Positions 1 through 23,032 of a DNA stretch of 64,000 nucleotides are shown in pieces (the first letter of the stretch is position 1; the number at the start of each line of letters is the position of its first letter). The position numbers and the translations under genes were made by a program. Origin of the DNA: Pseudobdellovibrio exovorus JSS (lineage in GTDB: Bacteria > Bdellovibrionota > Bdellovibrionia > Bdellovibrionales > Bdellovibrionaceae); NCBI RefSeq assembly GCF_000348725.1, contig NC_020813.1, positions 992,001-1,056,000 on the forward strand, written 5' to 3'. The notes under the pieces are model-generated. The model searched no databases. It had not been told where the DNA came from and saw nothing but the letters and a program-made list of their open reading frames with translations.

Positions 1-2435
1 GTCTTTCGGCCTATGCGCGGAATTTTTTAGAACAGCTTAAAAAACCAGAAGTGGATTCAGTTACAGGACTAAGTCCTGCGATTGCAATTGATCAGAAGTC
101 AGTAGGTTTAAATCCAAGATCCACAGTGGGCACGGTTACTGAAATTTATGACTATCTTCGCTTGTTGTATGCGAAAGTAGGTATTCCCGAGTGTCCGATA
201 CATCATGTGCCGGTGACATCGCAAACTCCACAGCAAATCATTGATGACATCTTTAAAAAATCAATGGGCACTAAGTTTTATATTTTAGCACCGATGGCTC
301 AGGCTAAAAAAGGTGAGTTCTTAGCTGAGTTCCAACGATGGGCTAAAAAAGGTTTCGTTAAAGCAAAAGTCGATGGTCAGTACATTGAGCTAGAGCGTGC
401 TACGAAACTGGCGAAAACGAAAACCCATGATATTGACTTGGTTGTTGATCAACTAATTCTAAAAGATACGATCAAACATCGCCTCAGTGAAAGTATTAAC
501 ACGGCTTTGTCTTTATCAAATGGACGAGTGATTATTGAAACAGTGAGCGGTGAGCGCATAAATTATTCTTTGCACTCTACCTGTCCTATCTGTGCGTTCA
601 GCTTCCCTGATTTAGAGCCGCGACTTTTTAGTTTTAATAATCCACGGGGAGCTTGTCCAACATGTAATGGCCTAGGCACTTTAGATCTTGTCGAAGAAGA
701 GCAGTTTGCTGATTCCGATGTGGGTGGACGAAAATTAGAAAAGGTTAAGTACACTTACAAAGGTAAAAAGGTATCAGAAGAAGATACTGATGATGAGGAA
801 TCAGAAGAAATGGTTTTGAATGAGTGTCCAGACTGCCAAGGGACACGCCTCAAGCCTGAATCTTTAAGTATTAAAATTGATGAAAAAAATATCGCCCAGT
901 TATCTGTCATGTCGGCTTTAGAGCTTAAGTCGTTCATGCTCAATTTAGACTGGAGTGAAAAGAATCGCATGATTGCGGACAAGATTGTGAAGCAAATCGT
1001 GTCACGCCTAGAATTCCTAGAGCGAGTGGGAGCTTCGTATTTGTCACTTTCGCGTCCAGCCAGAACTCTGTCTGGTGGGGAAGCTCAAAGAATTCGTTTG
1101 GCGACGCAAGTGGGGTCGGCCCTTATTGGATGTATGTATGTTATGGATGAACCGAGTATTGGACTTCATCCACGTGATCATCATCGTCTTCTAGAGATCA
1201 TCGGAGAACTTAAAGATCGTGGCAATACCGTGATTCTAGTTGAGCATGACGAAGATACGATTCGCTATGCTGATTATGTTGTGGATTTAGGCCCGCGCGC
1301 TGGTGTTTTGGGCGGTGAATTGATCGCGGTAGGGACTCCGGATGAAATCGAAAAAAATCAGAACTCTTTAACAGGGCAGTACTTATCAGGTAAGAAACGT
1401 ATCCCTATTCCAAGCGTCAGACGTAAAGGTTCAGGTAAGACACTGGCTCTTTATGGGGCCTCAGGAAATAATTTAAAAAATGTAAATCTTGAAATTCCAT
1501 TGGGGACACTGACCTGTGTGACAGGTGTTTCTGGCAGTGGAAAAAGTACATTGGTGTTGGACACTCTTTACAAGATTTTAGCACGTGAATTTTTTAGGGC
1601 GAAAGTGTCGCCGTCTCCGTATAAAAAAATTGAAGGTATCGAGCATATTGATAAAGTGATCGATATCAATCAACGTCCGATTGGGCGCACTCCGCGTTCG
1701 ACTCCGGCGACTTATGTGGGACTTTTGCCGATGATTCGGGATTTGTATGCGGCTTTGCCAGAAGCTAAACTGCGCGGCTTTGAGCCTGGTCGATTTAGTT
1801 TTAACGTGAAAGGTGGGCGCTGTGAAACCTGTATGGGTCATGGGCAAATCCGTATGGAGATGCACTTCCTTTCTGACGTCTTTGTCACGTGCGATACGTG
1901 CGGTGGACGTCGTTACAATCGCGAAACCTTAAATGTGAAGTACAAAGAAAAAAGTATCGCAGATGTCTTAGATATGAGTGTTGCTGAGGCTTTTGATTTT
2001 TTCAAAAACCATTCACAAATTCATCGTAAGCTAGAAACCCTTATGAAGGTGGGACTGGATTACATGACTCTGGGACAATCTTCGACGACGCTATCAGGTG
2101 GTGAAGCCCAACGCGTGAAACTTTCAAAAGAACTCTCTCGTCGTGGTACAGGAAGTACATTGTACATTTTGGATGAGCCGACGACAGGATTACATTTTGA
2201 TGATGTTCGTAAGTTAGTAGAGTTACTTCAAGAGCTGACGGAGCAAGGCAATACTGTTTTGGTCATTGAGCATAATTTAGAGGTTATAAAAACTGCCGAT
2301 CACATTGTGGATATTGGCCCGGATGGGGGTGTGCATGGTGGTGAAGTGGTGGCTTCTGGTACGCCAGAAAAAATTGTAAATAATAAAAACAGCATTACAG
2401 GTCGCTTTTTAAAACCGCTGTTAGTTAAGGAATAA
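1..2435 (+). CDS. uvrA: UvrA, excinuclease ABC subunit A (5' end cut by window)
   Basis: DNA-damage recognition ATPase of nucleotide excision repair, which loads UvrB at lesions. The reading frame is already open at base 3, so the N-terminus (including the first Walker A) lies outside the window; about 811 residues of a usual ~940 are present. Visible are the first zinc module (CPIC...CPTCNGLG, about 585-675), ABC signature LSGGEAQRIRLA (about 1070) with Walker B MDEPSIGLHP, the second Walker A GVSGSGKST (about 1528), the second zinc module CETCMG...CDTCGG (about 1828-1905), and a second signature LSGGEAQRVKL with LDEPTTGLHF. All catalytic motifs in this part look intact. The TerC-like gene follows one base after the stop. 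uvrB and uvrC lie about 54 kb away, so the excinuclease genes are not one operon. Confidence 0.97.
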   Translation, partial: LSAYARNFLEQLKKPEVDSVTGLSPAIAIDQKSVGLNPRSTVGTVTEIYDYLRLLYAKVGIPECPIHHVPVTSQTPQQIIDDIFKKSMGTKFYILAPMAQAKKGEFLAEFQRWAKKGFVKAKVDGQYIELERATKLAKTKTHDIDLVVDQLILKDTIKHRLSESINTALSLSNGRVIIETVSGERINYSLHSTCPICAFSFPDLEPRLFSFNNPRGACPTCNGLGTLDLVEEEQFADSDVGGRKLEKVKYTYKGKKVSEEDTDDEESEEMVLNECPDCQGTRLKPESLSIKIDEKNIAQLSVMSALELKSFMLNLDWSEKNRMIADKIVKQIVSRLEFLERVGASYLSLSRPARTLSGGEAQRIRLATQVGSALIGCMYVMDEPSIGLHPRDHHRLLEIIGELKDRGNTVILVEHDEDTIRYADYVVDLGPRAGVLGGELIAVGTPDEIEKNQNSLTGQYLSGKKRIPIPSVRRKGSGKTLALYGASGNNLKNVNLEIPLGTLTCVTGVSGSGKSTLVLDTLYKILAREFFRAKVSPSPYKKIEGIEHIDKVIDINQRPIGRTPRSTPATYVGLLPMIRDLYAALPEAKLRGFEPGRFSFNVKGGRCETCMGHGQIRMEMHFLSDVFVTCDTCGGRRYNRETLNVKYKEKSIADVLDMSVAEAFDFFKNHSQIHRKLETLMKVGLDYMTLGQSSTTLSGGEAQRVKLSKELSRRGTGSTLYILDEPTTGLHFDDVRKLVELLQELTEQGNTVLVIEHNLEVIKTADHIVDIGPDGGVHGGEVVASGTPEKIVNNKNSITGRFLKPLLVKE

Positions 2436-6635: not shown

Positions 6636-7442
6636 CTAAGATTTATTTGTGCTTTCGAAAATCTTATCCGCTGACTTCGCAATGAACCCTTGGTAAAGCT
6701 GGCCATTCGTCATAGGATAGCGTTTCGCAAACTCATAGTAGCATCCTGGAATTGCATAGATCCCATCACCGAATTGCACTTGAATCTCTGCTGCCATAGT
6801 TGAGCTTTGTTCTAGAAGCTCTGCCGGAGTTCCTTTAATTTCGCCACCTGAACTATTTAATTTAAAGTCGTTCTGTTTGATGAACGAATTGAGGCGATGA
6901 ATATCGTTGAAGTTGCGTAAGTGATTGATGCTAACAGTGAAGTGGTTGGGGCGGAAGCCATAAGCGTAAACCCAAGACGCATATTCACTTTCAGCCGCTA
7001 ACTTCAAGTAGGTCTGATGATTAGTAACCCAGTGCTTGCCACTGAAAACAAAGTTCTCATGGTTAACCACATCTGGGTTCATTTGATTGATACAGTTGTC
7101 GATAGTTTCACGAATGAAAGGTGAAACCTTATCTAACTCTAGTTCTGAAATAAAAATTTTAGGATAGCCCTCTGGGTGTTCATAGTGGCGGGCATAGAGT
7201 TTCTTTTCTGTGAAGAAGTACTCTTGCTCACTTTCCTTGTAGCCATATTTTAAAAAATGTTGAGCTAAAGACTGAAGACCTAATTTAGGGTGTTTGAATG
7301 TGCGTAGTGCGATGTGATCATTAATGACATGTTCGCCAGCATGAGTGAAAAGGTTATGTATTTTCTGAGCCTGTGGGTTCATCTGAACATAGTCATTCCA
7401 CATTGTGTTCATGTAGGTCGTCAGATTGGTATTATTTGCCAT
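6636..7442 (-). CDS. DUF1338-family protein (2-oxoadipate dioxygenase/decarboxylase-like)
   Basis: A cytosolic protein of 268 residues. The N-terminal DHIALRTFKHPKLG motif is characteristic of DUF1338 proteins, whose best-studied member (HglS of Pseudomonas putida) is a VOC-fold iron enzyme converting 2-oxoadipate to D-2-hydroxyglutarate in lysine breakdown. Also visible are NHFTVSINHLRNF, with a candidate metal histidine, and the C-terminal GCYYEFAKRYP containing a candidate glutamate ligand. It is shorter than HglS and belongs to the compact branch, so the exact substrate is unproven. The start ATG has a good GGAGG six bases upstream. No lysine-catabolism genes are next to it. Confidence 0.75.
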   Translation of the reverse strand: MANNTNLTTYMNTMWNDYVQMNPQAQKIHNLFTHAGEHVINDHIALRTFKHPKLGLQSLAQHFLKYGYKESEQEYFFTEKKLYARHYEHPEGYPKIFISELELDKVSPFIRETIDNCINQMNPDVVNHENFVFSGKHWVTNHQTYLKLAAESEYASWVYAYGFRPNHFTVSINHLRNFNDIHRLNSFIKQNDFKLNSSGGEIKGTPAELLEQSSTMAAEIQVQFGDGIYAIPGCYYEFAKRYPMTNGQLYQGFIAKSADKIFESTNKS

Positions 7443-7627: not shown

Positions 7628-9070
7628 ATGATGGGTAATAGTTTAAAAGTAACAAAAATTGCTATGGTGTTCTTTGCCTTTTTCACGGCTTTTAGCACGT
7701 GGGCTCAGCAATCGGGTACCAAGGCCACAGGGACCTCACAAATCAAAAGATCTCAGCTTAAGAAGGCTGAGGCGCAGGAATCTGCAACTCGTTTAGAGGT
7801 GGATCTGAGCGCTATTGGTTATGCAGAGGAAGCTGCCAACGATAGCAGTTTTCAGCAACGTGCACAGTTAGGCTTAAAGTTCAAAAAAGAAGGAAGCTTT
7901 TTTGGTGCTGCGGATATTACCTTGGGTACATTTTCGACTCCGAAAAGTATGTACTATGCTTTCCCTGATGCTTACATGGGCTATGGCACAAAAGATGCCA
8001 ATGTTACATTCGGACGTAAAAAAGAGAATCTGAGCTTTGCGGATTCATTTTTCAACTTTGGACTTATGCAGTCTCATCAAACGAACGACAACATCAACTT
8101 TATTGAGGGTGGTTTAGTCGGTTTAACGGCACGCTTTTCAACAGGTAACTTCGGTGTGATGGCCGCATTCAATCCTATTTTTATTCCGAATCAAGGGCCT
8201 CAGACCCAAGTGGAAGATGGTAAGATCACCTCCAGTAATCGCTGGGCTCCGGCTCCGCCATCTAAATTCAAATTTGGTGATGATCATAAAAATATTAACT
8301 ACGCGATACGTGATTACCAGTTATTAGATATCATTACGAATAGTGGATATATGGCCAGCGCGTACTTAGGACCGAACAGTGTTCGTCCTTATTTAAGAGT
8401 GACTTATGCCTACAAGCCATTAAATGAAATTGTTTTGTCACGTGATACTTACAGTGATATTTCGACATTTGAAGGTTACGTGTACCTTTCACCCAATACA
8501 ATTATGCATCAGGTGACGGCGGCGGATATCAATTTCGATTTTGAAAATATTAAAACTACATTTTCGGTTATTTCGGATCAGCCTGAAAATAAAACAGCTA
8601 AAGACTTAGAATTTATTCAGACTTTGAACCCACTTAATATCGTCGCTGGTTATATTTCAGTGGATTTGAGCTCATGGGCTAAAAAGAAACTAGAAATCTA
8701 CGCGGGTGCGGCCTCTATCAGCGGTGGTGAAATGCGTGATATGAATAGCCAAAATCAAGAAAGCAGTTTTGCTATTGCAGATTCTAGAACATTGTTTAAA
8801 AAGCCTCTGCGTTTGGGTGTGAAAAGCGAGATGTTTTTTATCTATAATAAGGCTGTAGATGCAGACGTGAGTTATACATACGATCAAGATTTAAAAGGTG
8901 CTTTACTTTCAGCATCGGTCAAGTATGGTGCTACAAAGAATCTGACTCTTCGTGTGGGCGCGGATATTATTGGTGTCGAAAACGAATTGCCAACAGATGC
9001 GCAAGGAAACTTCTTAGACCAGAACAAGGCCAACGACAGATTTTTTGCTGGAGTGAATTATGCGTTCTAA
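7628..9070 (+). CDS. Outer-membrane beta-barrel of module A (paralogue of 19327)
   Basis: Secreted protein of 480 residues: signal peptide (hydrophobic core VFFAFFTAF, cut near STWA), a short lysine-rich linker, then a long region of alternating strands ending in DRFFAGVNYAF, a C-terminal phenylalanine as in BAM substrates. I do not recognise a named porin family. It is clearly related to the 439-residue product at 19327: both carry FGRK/IGRK, IP[ND]QG, a DG...SN.W.P.PP stretch and an AGV.Y end. The next gene starts inside its last codons (11-base overlap), so barrel and lipoprotein are translationally coupled. ATGs stand at both 7628 and 7631 and no clear ribosome-binding site is seen. Confidence 0.8.
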   Translation: MMGNSLKVTKIAMVFFAFFTAFSTWAQQSGTKATGTSQIKRSQLKKAEAQESATRLEVDLSAIGYAEEAANDSSFQQRAQLGLKFKKEGSFFGAADITLGTFSTPKSMYYAFPDAYMGYGTKDANVTFGRKKENLSFADSFFNFGLMQSHQTNDNINFIEGGLVGLTARFSTGNFGVMAAFNPIFIPNQGPQTQVEDGKITSSNRWAPAPPSKFKFGDDHKNINYAIRDYQLLDIITNSGYMASAYLGPNSVRPYLRVTYAYKPLNEIVLSRDTYSDISTFEGYVYLSPNTIMHQVTAADINFDFENIKTTFSVISDQPENKTAKDLEFIQTLNPLNIVAGYISVDLSSWAKKKLEIYAGAASISGGEMRDMNSQNQESSFAIADSRTLFKKPLRLGVKSEMFFIYNKAVDADVSYTYDQDLKGALLSASVKYGATKNLTLRVGADIIGVENELPTDAQGNFLDQNKANDRFFAGVNYAF

Positions 9071-12000
9071 GTTTATATCAGCACTTTTGTGTCCAGTCGT
9101 GGCGTTGTCCGTTGCTGGCTGCGGGATTAAATTAGGAGAAAAAAATAATAAACAGGAAAAAGTCGCTGAAATCCAAGGGACCTCCTGCCTAAAGCCCTCT
9201 ATGGAGCTACTGAAAAAGTTTGTTGCAGGTAATGCCAATGACGATGAACTTTCGGAATCCTTAGAGTGTTTACAAAGTGTTTTGCTGACATTTAAAGAAA
9301 ATATCCGTGGTAAAGATGTTAATGCTTATACTCCCGAGGAAATTGGTAAGTTCTTAACGCAAAATTTCTTAAAGAATAGCACCTTTCAACTGACGCCAGA
9401 GCTAATGGGCGAAGTGCTCAAATTCAAAGTGATGCTTTTAGGTGGGGACACCGAAAAAATCACGAAAGAAGAGATCATTCGTCTGGTCGATGTTTTTGCT
9501 CGTTACAAGCCAGAACTATTAAAACTTAATCCGCACATGAAAGTGATCACAGGTAAGTGGGCGGCAACAGGCAACGAAAAACAAGATCAGCGTCAATTTA
9601 ATGAGGCGAAACGTGCCCTGATTTCTTTCTTAGATCATTTAGGTCGCGATTTAGCCTATACGCAAAGATCTTATGAGTTGAATGACATGTTCGGTTTAGT
9701 CGAAAAAATTGCGGGTATCGTAAATGCGAATGAAAGCACTCTTTCTACAATTCGCAATGCACGCGTAGCGATTATCTCTTTCAAAAAAGCTTTAATTGGT
9801 GGTGACTCTTCGCTAACAGGACAAGAGTGGGTGTCTTTTACACAAACTTTGTCCCAAGCTTATGCGCAGTACTTACGAGTTCAATATTTCCTTAAACCGC
9901 TGAAGGCAAGTCAATCTACTGAAAAGTGGCAGGTGTATGAAGGCATCGCAACAGACGTTGTGGGGCTGATCGAAGATCTATTAGGACGCAAAACTGGCGG
10001 CTTGCTTTCAAACAATGAGATTATTGAGCTATTGGGTAGCTTAAGACCTCTATTGCCATCTTTAGAGTTAAATGCAGAGATGGTGGGACAAATCAATCAT
10101 ATCAAGATCATGCTTTTGGGACGTCATAATTTGTCTGAGCAAGGGTGGTCAAAAGAGGACTTCTCGACTTTAAAAAGAAAGATTCCTGTTCTATTAAAAA
10201 ACATCAATGTCATCACAGCGAACTTAAAACATTTAAAAGTAAATAAGGAAGCCTATCGTAAGTCAGAAATTAAGTATGAAGACTTCCAACAGGCCGAGCT
10301 TGCTATTCAAGCCGCTGTTAAAGAGATCGGCGAGCAAATTGTTGAATCCTACGACTTAGATGTTTTAAAAGCGACAGTTTTGAATTTATCGCGAACAGTT
10401 TTAAAAGACAGTCTAAAACTTCCAGAAAATATTGAGCAGCTATTTGAAGTTGTAAAAACAGCTAAATACACGCTGACAGGTGAATCGGGTGCGACTGTAA
10501 GCCGCAACGGGATTCGATTATTGTTAAATGTCGGTATTCACATGTACGCGAACTTCGTTGAATTTTCGAACTTCGTCAGTGTTTTTAAAATTGAAGAGAA
10601 TGAATTCACAGCAAATCTAGCTAAGTTGCTGCCTAAATTTAAAGAGAGCACAGCATTATTGCTGCGAATGAAGCCTGATCATAATATCAGTACGCAAGAG
10701 ATAGTACCTCTGGTGATGTCTTTGCAAGAGCAGGGCTTACTGAAGACGAAGTTTCGTCAGGCCAGTGTAGAGTCGACTATCAATGCTCTGTGGAGTCATC
10801 TATTAAATGATCCGGCTAAGCGTTTAGGGACACCACGTGTGCATCTGGGTGGATTCGGGAGCGTGGCTTTAGAGCAATTGGCAACCGAACTTCAGCACTG
10901 GGTTCTTAATCAGATGGTGATCAACAGACTTTTCACAGAAAAGGAAAGTTACACGAAAGAAGAATTGGCGCCGGCGTTACAGCAGATGGGCTTATCTGAA
11001 CTTCATCGCTTAGTTGGAGCTAAAGGTCTGATGAACTTTAACAGTTCTGGCTATCTTAAGATTTTATCCGAGACGAACGGGCGCTATACTCGCGGAGATT
11101 TAATTAAATCTAACTTAGCCCGCGCAATTAGCCGCTTGGTGATTAGAGCTTTTGCTACAGATATTAATCGCGTCAATAACTTGCAAGGTGTTAATCAAGA
11201 TGAGCTACAAGCTGGCTTTAATCTGGTGCGAGGTCTTCTTGTGGATATTGGTATGATGGATGAAGTGGGTGCAGATGGCTTCGTGGCCTCTCGCTTCAGG
11301 GAAGCTAATCTATTTCTATCAGTGGGTAATGGCGATAGTATAGCCAGCTTAGAAGAGATTCATCATTTGGCTTTACATATTATGTCGGGCCTTGGCCGCG
11401 CTAATGCACTGAAACCGCTGGCGCTTGAGCGTTGTGTACAGACCCGTAACACAGAAAATGAAGGCTTAAGCCTTCTTGATGAAAGCTGTCTAATTGATTT
11501 GTACTACAATGAGGTGGCCGCATTCTCTGATTTGCCTAAGCTCCTTGAGATGAAGCAAAAGCATACGGAAGAGGAAGTGAAGACGTATTACCTGAGCTTA
11601 TTGAAAGCTGCAGGGTATGTGCAGACGGAAGAGAAGCAAGTGAAACTAAGTGACGCCGCTTTATTCCCTCACGTGGCGCAGTACTTAGAAATGATTTATT
11701 ACTCACACGATAAGAGTCAGGATTCTTTACTTCAGAAAGAAGAAGCTCTAGCTGCCTTCCCTGTATTTAAAGAGTTGATTGTAACACTGACAAAATCTTT
11801 CCCTGCGCTCGTCGAGGACGATATGCCAGGTGTATTTATCTTCTTATTAAAAGAGGGTAAGGCCCCAAGAACTCTGGCTGAAAAATTACGATTTGCAGCC
11901 TTTGTTAAGGACCATGACTGCAGTAAACCAGAGGGCTGTCATAAGGGTTGGGATATTCAAAGTACACGTTTAGATTTAGGTAAGATCTTTAACTTCATTG

Positions 12001-12074
12001 CAGAAGCGACGAAGCCACAGCCTCCGACTCCAGTAGTTGCAGGCGCCGGTACTGAGACCGCAGGGAACGAGTAA
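9060..12074 (+). CDS. Large EF-hand-like repeat lipoprotein of module A
   Basis: A 1004-residue lipoprotein with lipobox LSVAGC (Cys21, then Gly, so predicted to go to the outer membrane). The mature chain is mostly helical. A recurring signature, roughly LLGG-x3-KIT-x2-E, appears near residues 126, 245, 352 and 472, with more EF-hand-like forms near 624 (KESYTKEEL), 755-766 (VGNGDSIASLEE) and 884-895 (DKSQDSLLQKEE, a nearly canonical calcium loop). Spacing is 107-152 residues. It is homologous to the lipoprotein at 20636 over its ends and signature units. The gene overlaps the preceding barrel gene by 11 bases and ends in a terminator. The likely role, by inference, is a surface or periplasmic partner of the barrel. 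Function unknown. Confidence 0.85.
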   Translation: MRSKFISALLCPVVALSVAGCGIKLGEKNNKQEKVAEIQGTSCLKPSMELLKKFVAGNANDDELSESLECLQSVLLTFKENIRGKDVNAYTPEEIGKFLTQNFLKNSTFQLTPELMGEVLKFKVMLLGGDTEKITKEEIIRLVDVFARYKPELLKLNPHMKVITGKWAATGNEKQDQRQFNEAKRALISFLDHLGRDLAYTQRSYELNDMFGLVEKIAGIVNANESTLSTIRNARVAIISFKKALIGGDSSLTGQEWVSFTQTLSQAYAQYLRVQYFLKPLKASQSTEKWQVYEGIATDVVGLIEDLLGRKTGGLLSNNEIIELLGSLRPLLPSLELNAEMVGQINHIKIMLLGRHNLSEQGWSKEDFSTLKRKIPVLLKNINVITANLKHLKVNKEAYRKSEIKYEDFQQAELAIQAAVKEIGEQIVESYDLDVLKATVLNLSRTVLKDSLKLPENIEQLFEVVKTAKYTLTGESGATVSRNGIRLLLNVGIHMYANFVEFSNFVSVFKIEENEFTANLAKLLPKFKESTALLLRMKPDHNISTQEIVPLVMSLQEQGLLKTKFRQASVESTINALWSHLLNDPAKRLGTPRVHLGGFGSVALEQLATELQHWVLNQMVINRLFTEKESYTKEELAPALQQMGLSELHRLVGAKGLMNFNSSGYLKILSETNGRYTRGDLIKSNLARAISRLVIRAFATDINRVNNLQGVNQDELQAGFNLVRGLLVDIGMMDEVGADGFVASRFREANLFLSVGNGDSIASLEEIHHLALHIMSGLGRANALKPLALERCVQTRNTENEGLSLLDESCLIDLYYNEVAAFSDLPKLLEMKQKHTEEEVKTYYLSLLKAAGYVQTEEKQVKLSDAALFPHVAQYLEMIYYSHDKSQDSLLQKEEALAAFPVFKELIVTLTKSFPALVEDDMPGVFIFLLKEGKAPRTLAEKLRFAAFVKDHDCSKPEGCHKGWDIQSTRLDLGKIFNFIAEATKPQPPTPVVAGAGTETAGNE

Positions 12075-19326: not shown

Positions 19327-20646
19327 ATGGGAAGAAACCATCTGTTTTTGATTAGTGCTATCTTGTTTTTCAGCTTAGTGTCTCATTCTGAGATTCGCAC
19401 ATCTATGGTTGTTCAAGGGTTGTCATTTATCAGCCCTGATTATGAGTCTGCAAGCAGTAAATCTTTCGCATTCTTAGGCGCGAATCTTAAGACCAATCCT
19501 AAATCAGATGACCTTTTCCGTATTAACTTAACGGGTATGTATGCCATGGGGAACTCTGTTTTGAGTTTTCTGAATATCCGTGAAACATACTTCAGCACTT
19601 CATTTGAAGATAAATCAGAGCTTCACATTGGTCGCAAATTACATAACTGGTCTTCTTTAGACAGCGTATGGAATTTAGGTGTTTATCAACCTCAATTCCG
19701 TTGGAATCCATTGGCTCCTGAAAACCAAGGTTTAACAGGTTTATTTTGGGAGAAAAGAAACCAAGGATTTGCAGTGAGCTTATTTGCCTCGCCATTGTAT
19801 ATTCCAGATCAAGGCGCTAGTTTTGAGTTAAAAGATGGTCAGTTTCAAGCCAGTAATCCATGGTTCCCGATGCCTCCACAAAATGTTCGTTTTCAAGGAC
19901 AGTTGTTACCGATTGACTATAACGTCGATAAACCTGAAGTCAGTGAAGTGATCTTTCAAACTCAGTACGGAGCACAAGTTCGTATGGGTGAGGGACGTGG
20001 ATTCTTTGCTAATTTAGCAGGGATGTATAAACCTTCGAATCAATTGGCTTTGGGCTATAAAGGCGTGTTGGTAACGACACGTGTGCGTATAGATGTGACT
20101 CCGAAAGTCTATTATGAAAACGTGTATTCAGCAGATTTTGGCTACCGCGATACATGGGGAGCTGCTCAATTGTCGGTTTTATATAGCCAACCGAAAGATC
20201 CGAAGTTCGATGATGGATTTAACTCGCCTCAATTCGACGAAAGCTTAAGTTGGGGGCCACAGATATTTTTTAGATATCAACCCTTCACATTTTTCTTAGC
20301 CTACTTGGACACAACAGGTGGAAAAGTTAAAGATGTGGGACCTGATGCGGATGATAACAGAGCTTCCTTGTCGAATCGCTTTCAGTTCCGCCAAGCGGCT
20401 TTAGCTAGAGCTACATACACGGGAGTTTTTTGGAATCAATTTCGTTTAGACTCAACACTTCAATATAAATTCAGCCCATCAGAGTCGTTCCGCCAAATCA
20501 ACTTTAAGAATGCAGTGAAGTTACGTGGACCATGGGCTTTCTGGGTCGATGTGCTTTTAATTGATACTGATAGCGAAAAGAATTCGGCAATGGAAGCCTA
20601 CAAGAGTTTAGATCAAGTATGGGCGGGAGTAAGTTATGATATCTAA
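19327..20646 (+). CDS. Outer-membrane beta-barrel of module B (paralogue of 7628)
   Basis: A 439-residue secreted barrel protein with a signal peptide (LFLISAILFFSLVSHS). Alternating strands run throughout. Homology to the product at 7628 is seen by eye in HIGRKLHNWSSLDSVWNLGV against the FGRKKENLSFADSFFNFGL of the other, in IPDQG...DG...SNPWFPMPP, and in the C-terminal QVWAGVSYDI. It lacks the lysine-rich linker of module A. The downstream lipoprotein gene starts inside its last codons with an 11-base overlap, exactly the arrangement of module A. Function unknown; a channel or export partner for the lipoprotein is an inference. Confidence 0.8.
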   Translation: MGRNHLFLISAILFFSLVSHSEIRTSMVVQGLSFISPDYESASSKSFAFLGANLKTNPKSDDLFRINLTGMYAMGNSVLSFLNIRETYFSTSFEDKSELHIGRKLHNWSSLDSVWNLGVYQPQFRWNPLAPENQGLTGLFWEKRNQGFAVSLFASPLYIPDQGASFELKDGQFQASNPWFPMPPQNVRFQGQLLPIDYNVDKPEVSEVIFQTQYGAQVRMGEGRGFFANLAGMYKPSNQLALGYKGVLVTTRVRIDVTPKVYYENVYSADFGYRDTWGAAQLSVLYSQPKDPKFDDGFNSPQFDESLSWGPQIFFRYQPFTFFLAYLDTTGGKVKDVGPDADDNRASLSNRFQFRQAALARATYTGVFWNQFRLDSTLQYKFSPSESFRQINFKNAVKLRGPWAFWVDVLLIDTDSEKNSAMEAYKSLDQVWAGVSYDI

Positions 20647-23032
20647 AATCTGCTTAGCTTTTTTAGTTATTCCTATGATGTTATTGTCATCATGTACTGA
20701 GTTTACTAAGGGAAAACCTAAGAAAGAAGAAGTTGTAGAAATCAAACAAGACGCGATGAGTTGCTTGAAAGATGTTCCTTTAGATGTGCAAAATTTTATG
20801 AAATCTGAAGTGACACCGGCGGATATTGATAAAACATTTTCTTGTATTGATGACACCTTGTCACAGTTCCAAACGCGCGTTGAAGGACGCCAAGAGGCGA
20901 CTTCATTTAATGCAGAAGAGCTTTTTGAAATTTTTGAAAAATTCATTGAAGATTCAAATATCTCTAGAGACGCTACACGAGATTTACTCTCTTTAAAAAC
21001 AGCCTTACTAGGTGGTTCAGATCAGAAAATCACTAAAGATGAACTAACAGAGCTTCGCGCTTATTTGTTGGTGATTCGTGAAGAAGCTAAAAATCTACTA
21101 CCTTATGCTCAATTGTTTACTTTTCAAAAAACAGATGCACCACTAACTAAAACCATGATTAAAGATGGATTTGCTCAGCTTAATTTAAGTCTTAAAAATC
21201 TTTTGGCAGCATCTCGTATGTCTCAGTCTTCTTATGGATTTGAAGACTTCAAAAGAACTATCAAAAATATGAATGTTTTGAAAGAAGATCAGCAGGGAAT
21301 GCTAGAGTTGGCTGACAAGGTCAATACTCTTTTGATCGGTCAGCAGGCCGCTGGCGGTGAGTCTGAAAGACAAATCTACATTGATAATTTAACAGAGGTA
21401 CTACGTTTATACTCAACTCATATTCATGGACATGTTAAATTTGAAATCAGCACGCCTGCTGTATTAAATAACTTAATCGAGTTTATCGAAGATGCGGTAT
21501 CGTTATTAGAAGGCACATTGCAATACCGAAAAACTCAAAAAATTTCGATGGCCTCACTTGATCCTTTGATTTCTGAAGTTTTTGAAAAAGAGATGATGCC
21601 ACTTCCAGTTTCCAGTTCAACGGCATTGAGCTTTTACAAAACAATAGTAGTGCGTGTTTTAGAATCAGGACTTGCTGGCGATATCATGGCATTTGATGGT
21701 ATCAAGCGCGTGCATTTCAGTAATTTGAAAAGAGAAATAGCTGTTTACAAAATCTATAGTAAGTATCTTGAAACTATCGCAAGCGAGTCGGTTTTGGCTT
21801 CAAGCCAGAATCGCAGAATCCCTGTGGAAACAGTTCAGCGTCAGCTACGTCAATTTGACCCTGCAAGCGAGACGGCAATTCTAAAAGATTTCGACTCAGA
21901 GACGCAAAGACTCATTGTTAATATTGTGAAAGAATTAAAAGAACAGTTTTTAATTCAAAAGCCTTCTATTTATCGCAATAAAAAGTTGATGTTGTATGCC
22001 AATCAAAATCTAGCTCAGCAAAATTGGGTGGATTTGACTCGTGGATTTTATGTGATGATGTTATCGCGCCAAATGCTATTAGGTTGGGGCGAGACGCCGT
22101 TTGTGAAGTTAGTGAAAAATGCCCATGCCAGCAAGCGTGGAATGGTGCAGTGGTATAATGAGTTTAAAAATTTCGGAATCGAAATCAAAGCTATGGACCC
22201 ACGAGTTGAAAACCAAGGTGAGGCTAGCGTAATTGCTGCAAACCTGTTTACCGCATCTGGTAATGGCGATGATAAAATGAGCTTTTCGGAAACGCTACAA
22301 AGCTTCAATATTCTGATCTCTGGCGGTCAGACTTTTAATGAAATGAAGCAGGGCTTAGCCAATGCCAACTGTAACCTTTCAGATATGGATGTGTTCGGTA
22401 ATCCATGGAATAACGAAGCCTGTTTTATAGGCGAGCTGAAGCGGGGATATAAATACTATTTTTCTAACCTTCCAGCTTTAAGTGTTTATTTAGAGCGTTT
22501 GACACCGGAACAGTTCCAAGATTTCTTTGTGGCCTTGCTCGATGCGGCCCGTAAAGAAGAGGCTAACAAAAATGTGCGTTTGGAAAGTGCAGATATCAAA
22601 ATGATGATTTCTTTGTTGTATTACATGGAGTCCTTGTATGCGGCCCATGATAGCAATAACAACTTCCTATTATCTCCGACAGAGATCCGTACGGCTTATC
22701 CAAAGTTTAAAAACTTTGCAACGGAGTTTGCCCGTGAACATTCCAAAGCTGAACTGGATAAGTTTAATGGCCGATTGGGCCGTGTGGCTTATTCTTGTTA
22801 TGGTGAAGAAGACCTTATCCGTGAATCTTTTATTTTCTTGTTGTTTAAAGGACGCACTCCAAAACAAGAGGATTTAAGTACATTGCCATGTGTGGTAACG
22901 CCGGGGATTCTTCGCCGTATAACTCCAGATAACTTGGACAATCGCAGACCACTCATTCAACACGAGGGTGAGGTCGGCCGTCGTACTATTATTAATACTT
23001 TTAAAATCCTGAAAGCTGTATTAAGCTCCTAG
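20636..23032 (+). CDS. Large EF-hand-like lipoprotein of module B
   Basis: A 798-residue lipoprotein with lipobox LLSSC (Cys20, then Thr, outer-membrane sorting expected). It is mostly helical and homologous to the lipoprotein at 9060: both have SCLK near residue 44, an LLGG-x3-KIT-x2-E unit (here about residue 124, TALLGGSDQKITKDEL), a degenerate unit near 541 (SGNGDDKMSFSE), and a near-canonical EF-hand loop close to the C-terminus (residues 672-683, DSNNNFLLSPTE), then FIFLL.KG.[AT]P. It is about 200 residues shorter, apparently having fewer repeat units. It overlaps the barrel gene by 11 bases, and the MFS gene starts one base after its stop. Confidence 0.85.
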   Translation: MISKICLAFLVIPMMLLSSCTEFTKGKPKKEEVVEIKQDAMSCLKDVPLDVQNFMKSEVTPADIDKTFSCIDDTLSQFQTRVEGRQEATSFNAEELFEIFEKFIEDSNISRDATRDLLSLKTALLGGSDQKITKDELTELRAYLLVIREEAKNLLPYAQLFTFQKTDAPLTKTMIKDGFAQLNLSLKNLLAASRMSQSSYGFEDFKRTIKNMNVLKEDQQGMLELADKVNTLLIGQQAAGGESERQIYIDNLTEVLRLYSTHIHGHVKFEISTPAVLNNLIEFIEDAVSLLEGTLQYRKTQKISMASLDPLISEVFEKEMMPLPVSSSTALSFYKTIVVRVLESGLAGDIMAFDGIKRVHFSNLKREIAVYKIYSKYLETIASESVLASSQNRRIPVETVQRQLRQFDPASETAILKDFDSETQRLIVNIVKELKEQFLIQKPSIYRNKKLMLYANQNLAQQNWVDLTRGFYVMMLSRQMLLGWGETPFVKLVKNAHASKRGMVQWYNEFKNFGIEIKAMDPRVENQGEASVIAANLFTASGNGDDKMSFSETLQSFNILISGGQTFNEMKQGLANANCNLSDMDVFGNPWNNEACFIGELKRGYKYYFSNLPALSVYLERLTPEQFQDFFVALLDAARKEEANKNVRLESADIKMMISLLYYMESLYAAHDSNNNFLLSPTEIRTAYPKFKNFATEFAREHSKAELDKFNGRLGRVAYSCYGEEDLIRESFIFLLFKGRTPKQEDLSTLPCVVTPGILRRITPDNLDNRRPLIQHEGEVGRRTIINTFKILKAVLSS

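Follow-up and report, generated by a model that had tools for sequence, protein, structure and literature searches.

EF-hands, normally present in small numbers, are generally taken for calcium sensors, and the EF-hand pair is the fold of calmodulin. In SusD–SusC and AlgK–AlgE, an outer-membrane barrel is encoded together with a lipoprotein built of alpha-helical repeats of the TPR type. Calsymin (CasA) and EfhP are bacterial EF-hand proteins that have been described via their calcium-binding loops, two of them in EfhP (PMC4053335), and PopA is a pentameric porin-like outer-membrane protein of Bdellovibrio bacteriovorus, for which the excerpted description names no lipoprotein partner (PMC12228718). 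A literature search on EF-hand proteins in Bdellovibrio returned nothing beyond incidental mention.

Here we analysed a window of 64,000 nucleotides from the epibiotic predator Pseudobdellovibrio exovorus JSS (contig NC_020813.1, positions 992,001 to 1,056,000), in which two cassettes (A and B) each place a lipoprotein gene (lipA, lipB) behind the gene for a probable outer-membrane beta-barrel (barA) or its paralogue (barB) (Table 1). In its predicted bridged helix-loop-helix pairs and its last-loop consensus, lipA resembles the EF-hand superfamily (S100, frequenin/NCS, penta-EF-hand), from which it differs in holding about eight such pairs in one exported lipoprotein, nearly all of them without calcium ligands. 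Like calsymin and EfhP, it would be an exported or periplasm-facing bacterial protein with EF-hands or EF-hand-like units, but compared with their published description (PMC4053335) it is far larger, carries a lipid anchor, has a single credible loop and would partner a barrel. The likeness to SusD and AlgK is one of architecture, with no homology detected, and the bricks of lipA look like EF-hand pairs rather than TPRs; PopA and barA share a predatory group.

Table 1. Coordinates of the genes, repeat units and loops discussed in the text (positions in the window; residues of the protein named).
Feature	Position (nt)	Strand	Residues	Remarks
barA	7628..9070	+		480-aa exported protein, probable outer-membrane beta-barrel upstream of lipA, presumed to be translationally coupled to it
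barA/lipA overlap	9060..9070	+		11 nt, ATGnnnnCTAA-type
lipA	9060..12074	+		1004-aa lipoprotein; lipobox VAGC, Cys21
Repeat unit copy 1	9231..9911	+	lipA 58-284	EF-hand-like pairs 1, 2 (predicted)
Repeat unit copy 2	9912..10589	+	lipA 285-510	EF-hand-like pairs 3, 4 (predicted)
Loops of pairs 1-4			lipA 83-94/127-138, 198-209/245-256, 309-320/356-367, 424-435/473-484	AlphaFold2 secondary structure
Loops of pairs 5-8			lipA 536-547/592-603, 624-635/669-680, 704-715/755-766, 854-865/884-895	AlphaFold2 secondary structure
Site 1, loop 1b	9438..9473	+	lipA 127-138	LGGDTEKITKEE; acid at position 12 conserved, no ligands at 1, 3
Site 2, loop 2b	9792..9827	+	lipA 245-256	
Site 3, loop 3b	10125..10160	+	lipA 356-367	
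Site 4, loop 4b	10476..10511	+	lipA 473-484	
Loop 5a	10665..10700	+	lipA 536-547	RMKPDHNISTQE; head of diverged fifth pair
Site 5, loop 6a	10929..10964	+	lipA 624-635	first loop of sixth pair
Site 6, loop 7b	11322..11357	+	lipA 755-766	[ND]G[DN] at positions 3-5, E12 conserved
Site 7, loop 8b	11709..11744	+	lipA 884-895	DKSQDSLLQKEE; ligands at 1, 3, 5, 12 all conserved, in this loop alone
barB	19327..20646	+		439-aa paralogue of barA; BLASTP E 1.6e-15 to barA
barB/lipB overlap	20636..20646			11 nt
lipB	20636..23032	+		798-aa paralogue of lipA, one repeat unit copy
lipB repeat unit	20807..21475	+	lipB 58-280	
lipB loop, site 6 counterpart	22256..22291	+	lipB 541-552	
lipB loop, site 7 counterpart	22649..22684	+	lipB 672-683	DSNNNFLLSPTE

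The lipoprotein and its repeated unit

The lipA product was classed as a lipoprotein by its N-terminal signal sequence and lipobox cysteine, and M1 and C21 are conserved across the family alignment; searches of Pfam and NCBIfam with lipA and lipB gave nothing credible, leaving lipA without a family name in either. Besides the lipobox cysteine, lipA carries cysteines at residues 43, 70, 792 and 810 (nucleotides 9186, 9267, 11433 and 11487), with lipB counterparts at residues 43, 70, 579 and 596; to judge from the sequences, these are two invariant or near-invariant pairs that likely form disulfides. In some homologues (lipoboxes of L072 and L073), an Asp directly follows the lipobox cysteine; in E. 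coli such an Asp retains the lipoprotein in the inner membrane, a rule that may not apply in this phylum.

A first-pass annotation of the window had described seven repeated EF-hand-like signatures along this protein and proposed a solenoid grown by duplication of a helix-loop-helix unit, and all of the strings and positions that it quoted for the protein are present. Profiles computed from family alignments (28 A-type and 28 B-type relatives, picked from the genus, family and order) showed that residues 58–510 of lipA are a tandem duplication with a 227-residue unit: residues 60–170 matched residues 285–400 with 98.8% probability, and residues 180–290 matched residues 405–520 with 99.3% (98.3% for repeats 1 and 3 and 99.4% for repeats 2 and 4 with boundaries from the AlphaFold2 model), most unrelated segment pairs of lipA scoring <20% in the same comparison. 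From these matches, the first half of lipA consists of one two-part unit duplicated in tandem. Repeat 1 against repeat 2 was weaker (84% at best, with family sub-profiles), and pairs beyond the first four did not align with pairs 1–4 by sequence, save for a weak alignment of pair 5 with pair 3 (90% probability, refined boundaries). A hidden Markov model of the unit, trained on first copies and B-type units, found a second copy in 26 of the 28 A-type proteins; B-type and other homologues had one copy each. Both these profile matches and the loop statistics below were recomputed with altered segment boundaries or registers.

Growth by duplication thus holds for pairs 1–4, but the demonstrable block, two pairs and 227 residues long, is larger than the annotated one. 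The annotation had also named a missing self-alignment as evidence against itself; self-BLASTP of lipA and lipB as single sequences returned the full-length match only, with no internal repeat, so that this adverse outcome was found on the single sequence alone, whereas family profiles gave the opposite result (98.3–99.4%), a significant internal self-alignment across pairs 1–4. At the DNA level, repeats amounted to two short chance-like pairs.

Two same-genus relatives have each lost one whole unit, in register and with different breakpoints: L016 is without lipA residues 313–539 (227 residues) and L024 without residues 196–424 (229 residues). A tree built on the C-terminal region placed the A-type proteins in one group (100/100), within which both relatives nested among two-copy proteins, indicating two separate unit losses; because the two repeat copies are strongly diverged, assembly collapse would be an improbable cause. 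As such naturally occurring proteins differ by precisely one unit of two pairs, how the array evolved can be tested directly.

Barrel partner, gene overlap and distribution

With a signal-peptide-like start and a C-terminal Y-x-F end, barA encodes a probable outer-membrane beta-barrel, and its homologues lie directly upstream of the lipoprotein gene in most related loci. The barrel proteins had no match in Pfam or the PDB, and we therefore infer the barrel fold. PopA was considered as a relative and set aside, as barrel profile A5 retrieved no PDB chain at E ≤ 1. On the other side of barA, the minus-strand gene at 6636–7442 encodes a protein that matches PF07063 (2-oxoadipate dioxygenase/decarboxylase).

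The two genes of a cassette share 11 nucleotides that code for the barrel's Y-x-F-stop (or similar) in one frame and for the lipoprotein's M-x-S-K in the other, an overlap computed for every adjacent cassette examined (A, B and other types). Barrel and lipoprotein distances were correlated (r = 0.87, shared phylogeny not removed). In three distant homologues (L082, L083 and L088), no barrel was detected adjoining the lipoprotein gene; a further locus (L084) ends close to that gene. Within the sampled genomes, from which all related sequences were drawn, the lipoprotein family was recovered in 213 of the 291 from the phylum. A contig scan with a single lipoprotein sequence found nothing and one with a nine-row alignment succeeded, the named relatives with related loci being Pseudobdellovibrio, Bdellovibrio and Bacteriovoracaceae. 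In several related genomes, the A and B cassettes are linked within about 8–55 kb, which suggests an old local cassette duplication.

Predicted fold and calcium-type loops

AlphaFold2 modelled full-length lipA (15 sequences; mean pLDDT 82.3, pTM 0.73) as all-helical, short bridges of two or three residues immediately preceding helices, and the unit alone (43 sequences; pLDDT 94.1, pTM 0.85) with each repeat of ~110 residues as two helix-loop-helix motifs plus a short beta bridge, which is the topology of an EF-hand pair. With loop pairing read from the secondary-structure string of the model, lipA is predicted to consist of about eight EF-hand-like pairs, or 16 loops. The repeated helix-loop-helix that had been proposed is therefore present in the model, but its unit is a bridged pair, with about 16 loops instead of seven, and the annotated sites mark roughly one loop per pair, the fifth in another register.

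In a Foldseek search of the unit against the PDB, EF-hand proteins made up 25 of the top 50 matches by our own count (among them grancalcin, sorcin, SOS3, calmodulin, frequenin, CIB1, centrin, S100 and ALG-2), the best being frequenin by probability (0.89) and S100Z by superposition over one pair (TM 0.57). No single match was significant (best E 0.17), and the support thus lies in the consistency of the EF-hand matches and not in any one of them. The full-length model matched no known fold with Foldseek; its matches were long helical arrays (TM about 0.1) that we judged meaningless. Sequence profiles of the unit found no EF-hand families and, against the PDB, only coiled-coil and designed-helix noise, so the EF-hand relation of pairs 1–4 rests on the predicted fold.

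Of the seven signatures first listed, sites 1–4 do share a common element, an almost invariant K-x4-G (K123, K242, K349 and K469), but site 5 is out of register with them, having no profile alignment to that repeat and being modelled as the first loop of the sixth pair, and loop 5a had been missed. Averaged over the family, position 8 of the 16 loops is hydrophobic in 94% and position 12 acidic in 73% (background 12.5%), with position 8 placed by hand from the beta bridges. In a mechanical register, with position 8 set two residues before the helix start, the 16 loop-exit helices were compared with 21 other helices: position 8 was hydrophobic in 87% versus 34% (P = 9 × 10−5), position 12 acidic in 67% versus 20% (P = 1 × 10−4) and position 9 Ser or Thr in 47% versus 29% (P = 0.03). 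A hydrophobic residue followed by [ST]-x-x-E is also an ordinary helix capping box, so these statistics support, without proving, an EF-hand ancestry.

Calcium ligands follow a different course along the protein. Ligands at positions 1, 3 and 5 are not kept in pairs 1–4, pairs 1–5 keep little beyond position 12, sites 1–5 hold almost no ligands, and site 6 is intermediate (positions 3, 5, 9 and 12 kept; position 1 not a ligand), in keeping with the earlier view that most units have lost theirs. Ligands at positions 1, 3, 5 and 12 are conserved together at the last loop only, which had been singled out as the working one together with its module B counterpart in lipB (DSNNNFLLSPTE): almost all of the A-type homologues and most of the B-type ones have liganding residues at these four positions, and the consensus (residues 884–895 in lipA, 672–683 in lipB) is typically D-x-[ND]-x-[DN]-x-x-L-x-x-x-E. 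A strict 12-residue EF pattern occurs at this C-terminal place in 16 of 28 A-type, 11 of 28 B-type and 5 of 11 other homologues, compared with 0.007 per protein expected by shuffling; some homologues are without ligands there, and the window itself contains no match, the terminal loops of lipA and lipB failing at position 6, where Ser and Phe, respectively, replace the usual Gly. All PDB matches of the full-length A-type and B-type profiles were EF-hand proteins. Pfam EF-hand models matched about 10 of 24 A-type and 13 of 28 B-type members below cut-off, mostly at the last loop in the members inspected, and the module B consensus passed two Pfam EF-hand cut-offs; lipA itself had no EF-hand match in Pfam. 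Both their own conservation and their database matches thus mark sites 6 and 7 as EF-hand-like, and the last loop is, from its residues, the only one that looks able to bind calcium.

Alternative readings and a proposed envelope scaffold

These observations could be read in other ways. The repeats might be an array of helical hairpins that does not descend from EF-hands, with sites 1–5 as capping boxes bearing a hydrophobic staple and the true EF-hand confined to the C-terminal domain; such an array would explain why unit profiles find no EF-hands and why Foldseek E-values exceed 0.1, and helices of many kinds begin with [IL][ST]xx[ED]. We nevertheless consider it rather unlikely, given that short beta bridges pair both loops of each repeat, that EF-hand proteins are strongly over-represented in the structural search with the unit and that the 21 other helices show the capping signature far less strongly. 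A doubtful but more serious possibility is that the C-terminal loop is itself a relic, its D-x-S-x-D...E kept for structure in a protein that is calcium-free in P. exovorus. The non-glycine residues at position 6, the absence of the strict pattern from the window and the homologues that have dropped their ligands all agree with this, whereas the retention of liganding residues at positions 1, 3, 5 and 12 in almost every A-type homologue and in most of the B-type ones argues against it. Lipoprotein and barrel might, finally, be co-transcribed and form no complex, as the distant homologues with no detectable adjacent barrel would allow; this seems unlikely, since the overlap is exactly 11 nucleotides in every A or B cassette with an adjacent barrel gene and since the two genes have been duplicated together.

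The reading that we favour, and hold to be reasonably likely, is that lipA is a lipid-anchored, barrel-docked scaffold of about eight EF-hand-like pairs with a calcium loop at its end; the duplication, the family, the gene overlap and the conserved ligands come directly from computation and the fold from prediction, while its docking, calcium binding, location and role are what we infer. The EF-hand pair fold would have been kept as a structural brick while the calcium ligands were lost in nearly all loops, and pairs 1–4 would go back to a block of two pairs that was duplicated in tandem in the common ancestor of A-type proteins. Made with the probable barrel from the overlapping upstream gene, lipA would most likely dock on it, the two acting as a lipoprotein–barrel pair in the general manner of SusD–SusC or AlgK–AlgE, and calcium at the terminal loop would stabilize or orient the C-terminal end. 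More tentatively, and as a possibility somewhat less likely than not, the barrel partners across Bdellovibrionota could form one class of calcium-free EF-hand-pair arrays with a single terminal calcium switch, in which whole two-pair units are gained and lost.

Together, the occurrence of the cassette in 213 of 291 genomes, the missing family name for lipA and the probable barrel partner make this a candidate for an envelope system in predatory bacteria. If the favoured reading is true, the EF-hand would act here chiefly as a building element of an extended envelope scaffold, and the role of solenoid brick would be an uncommon one for this fold.
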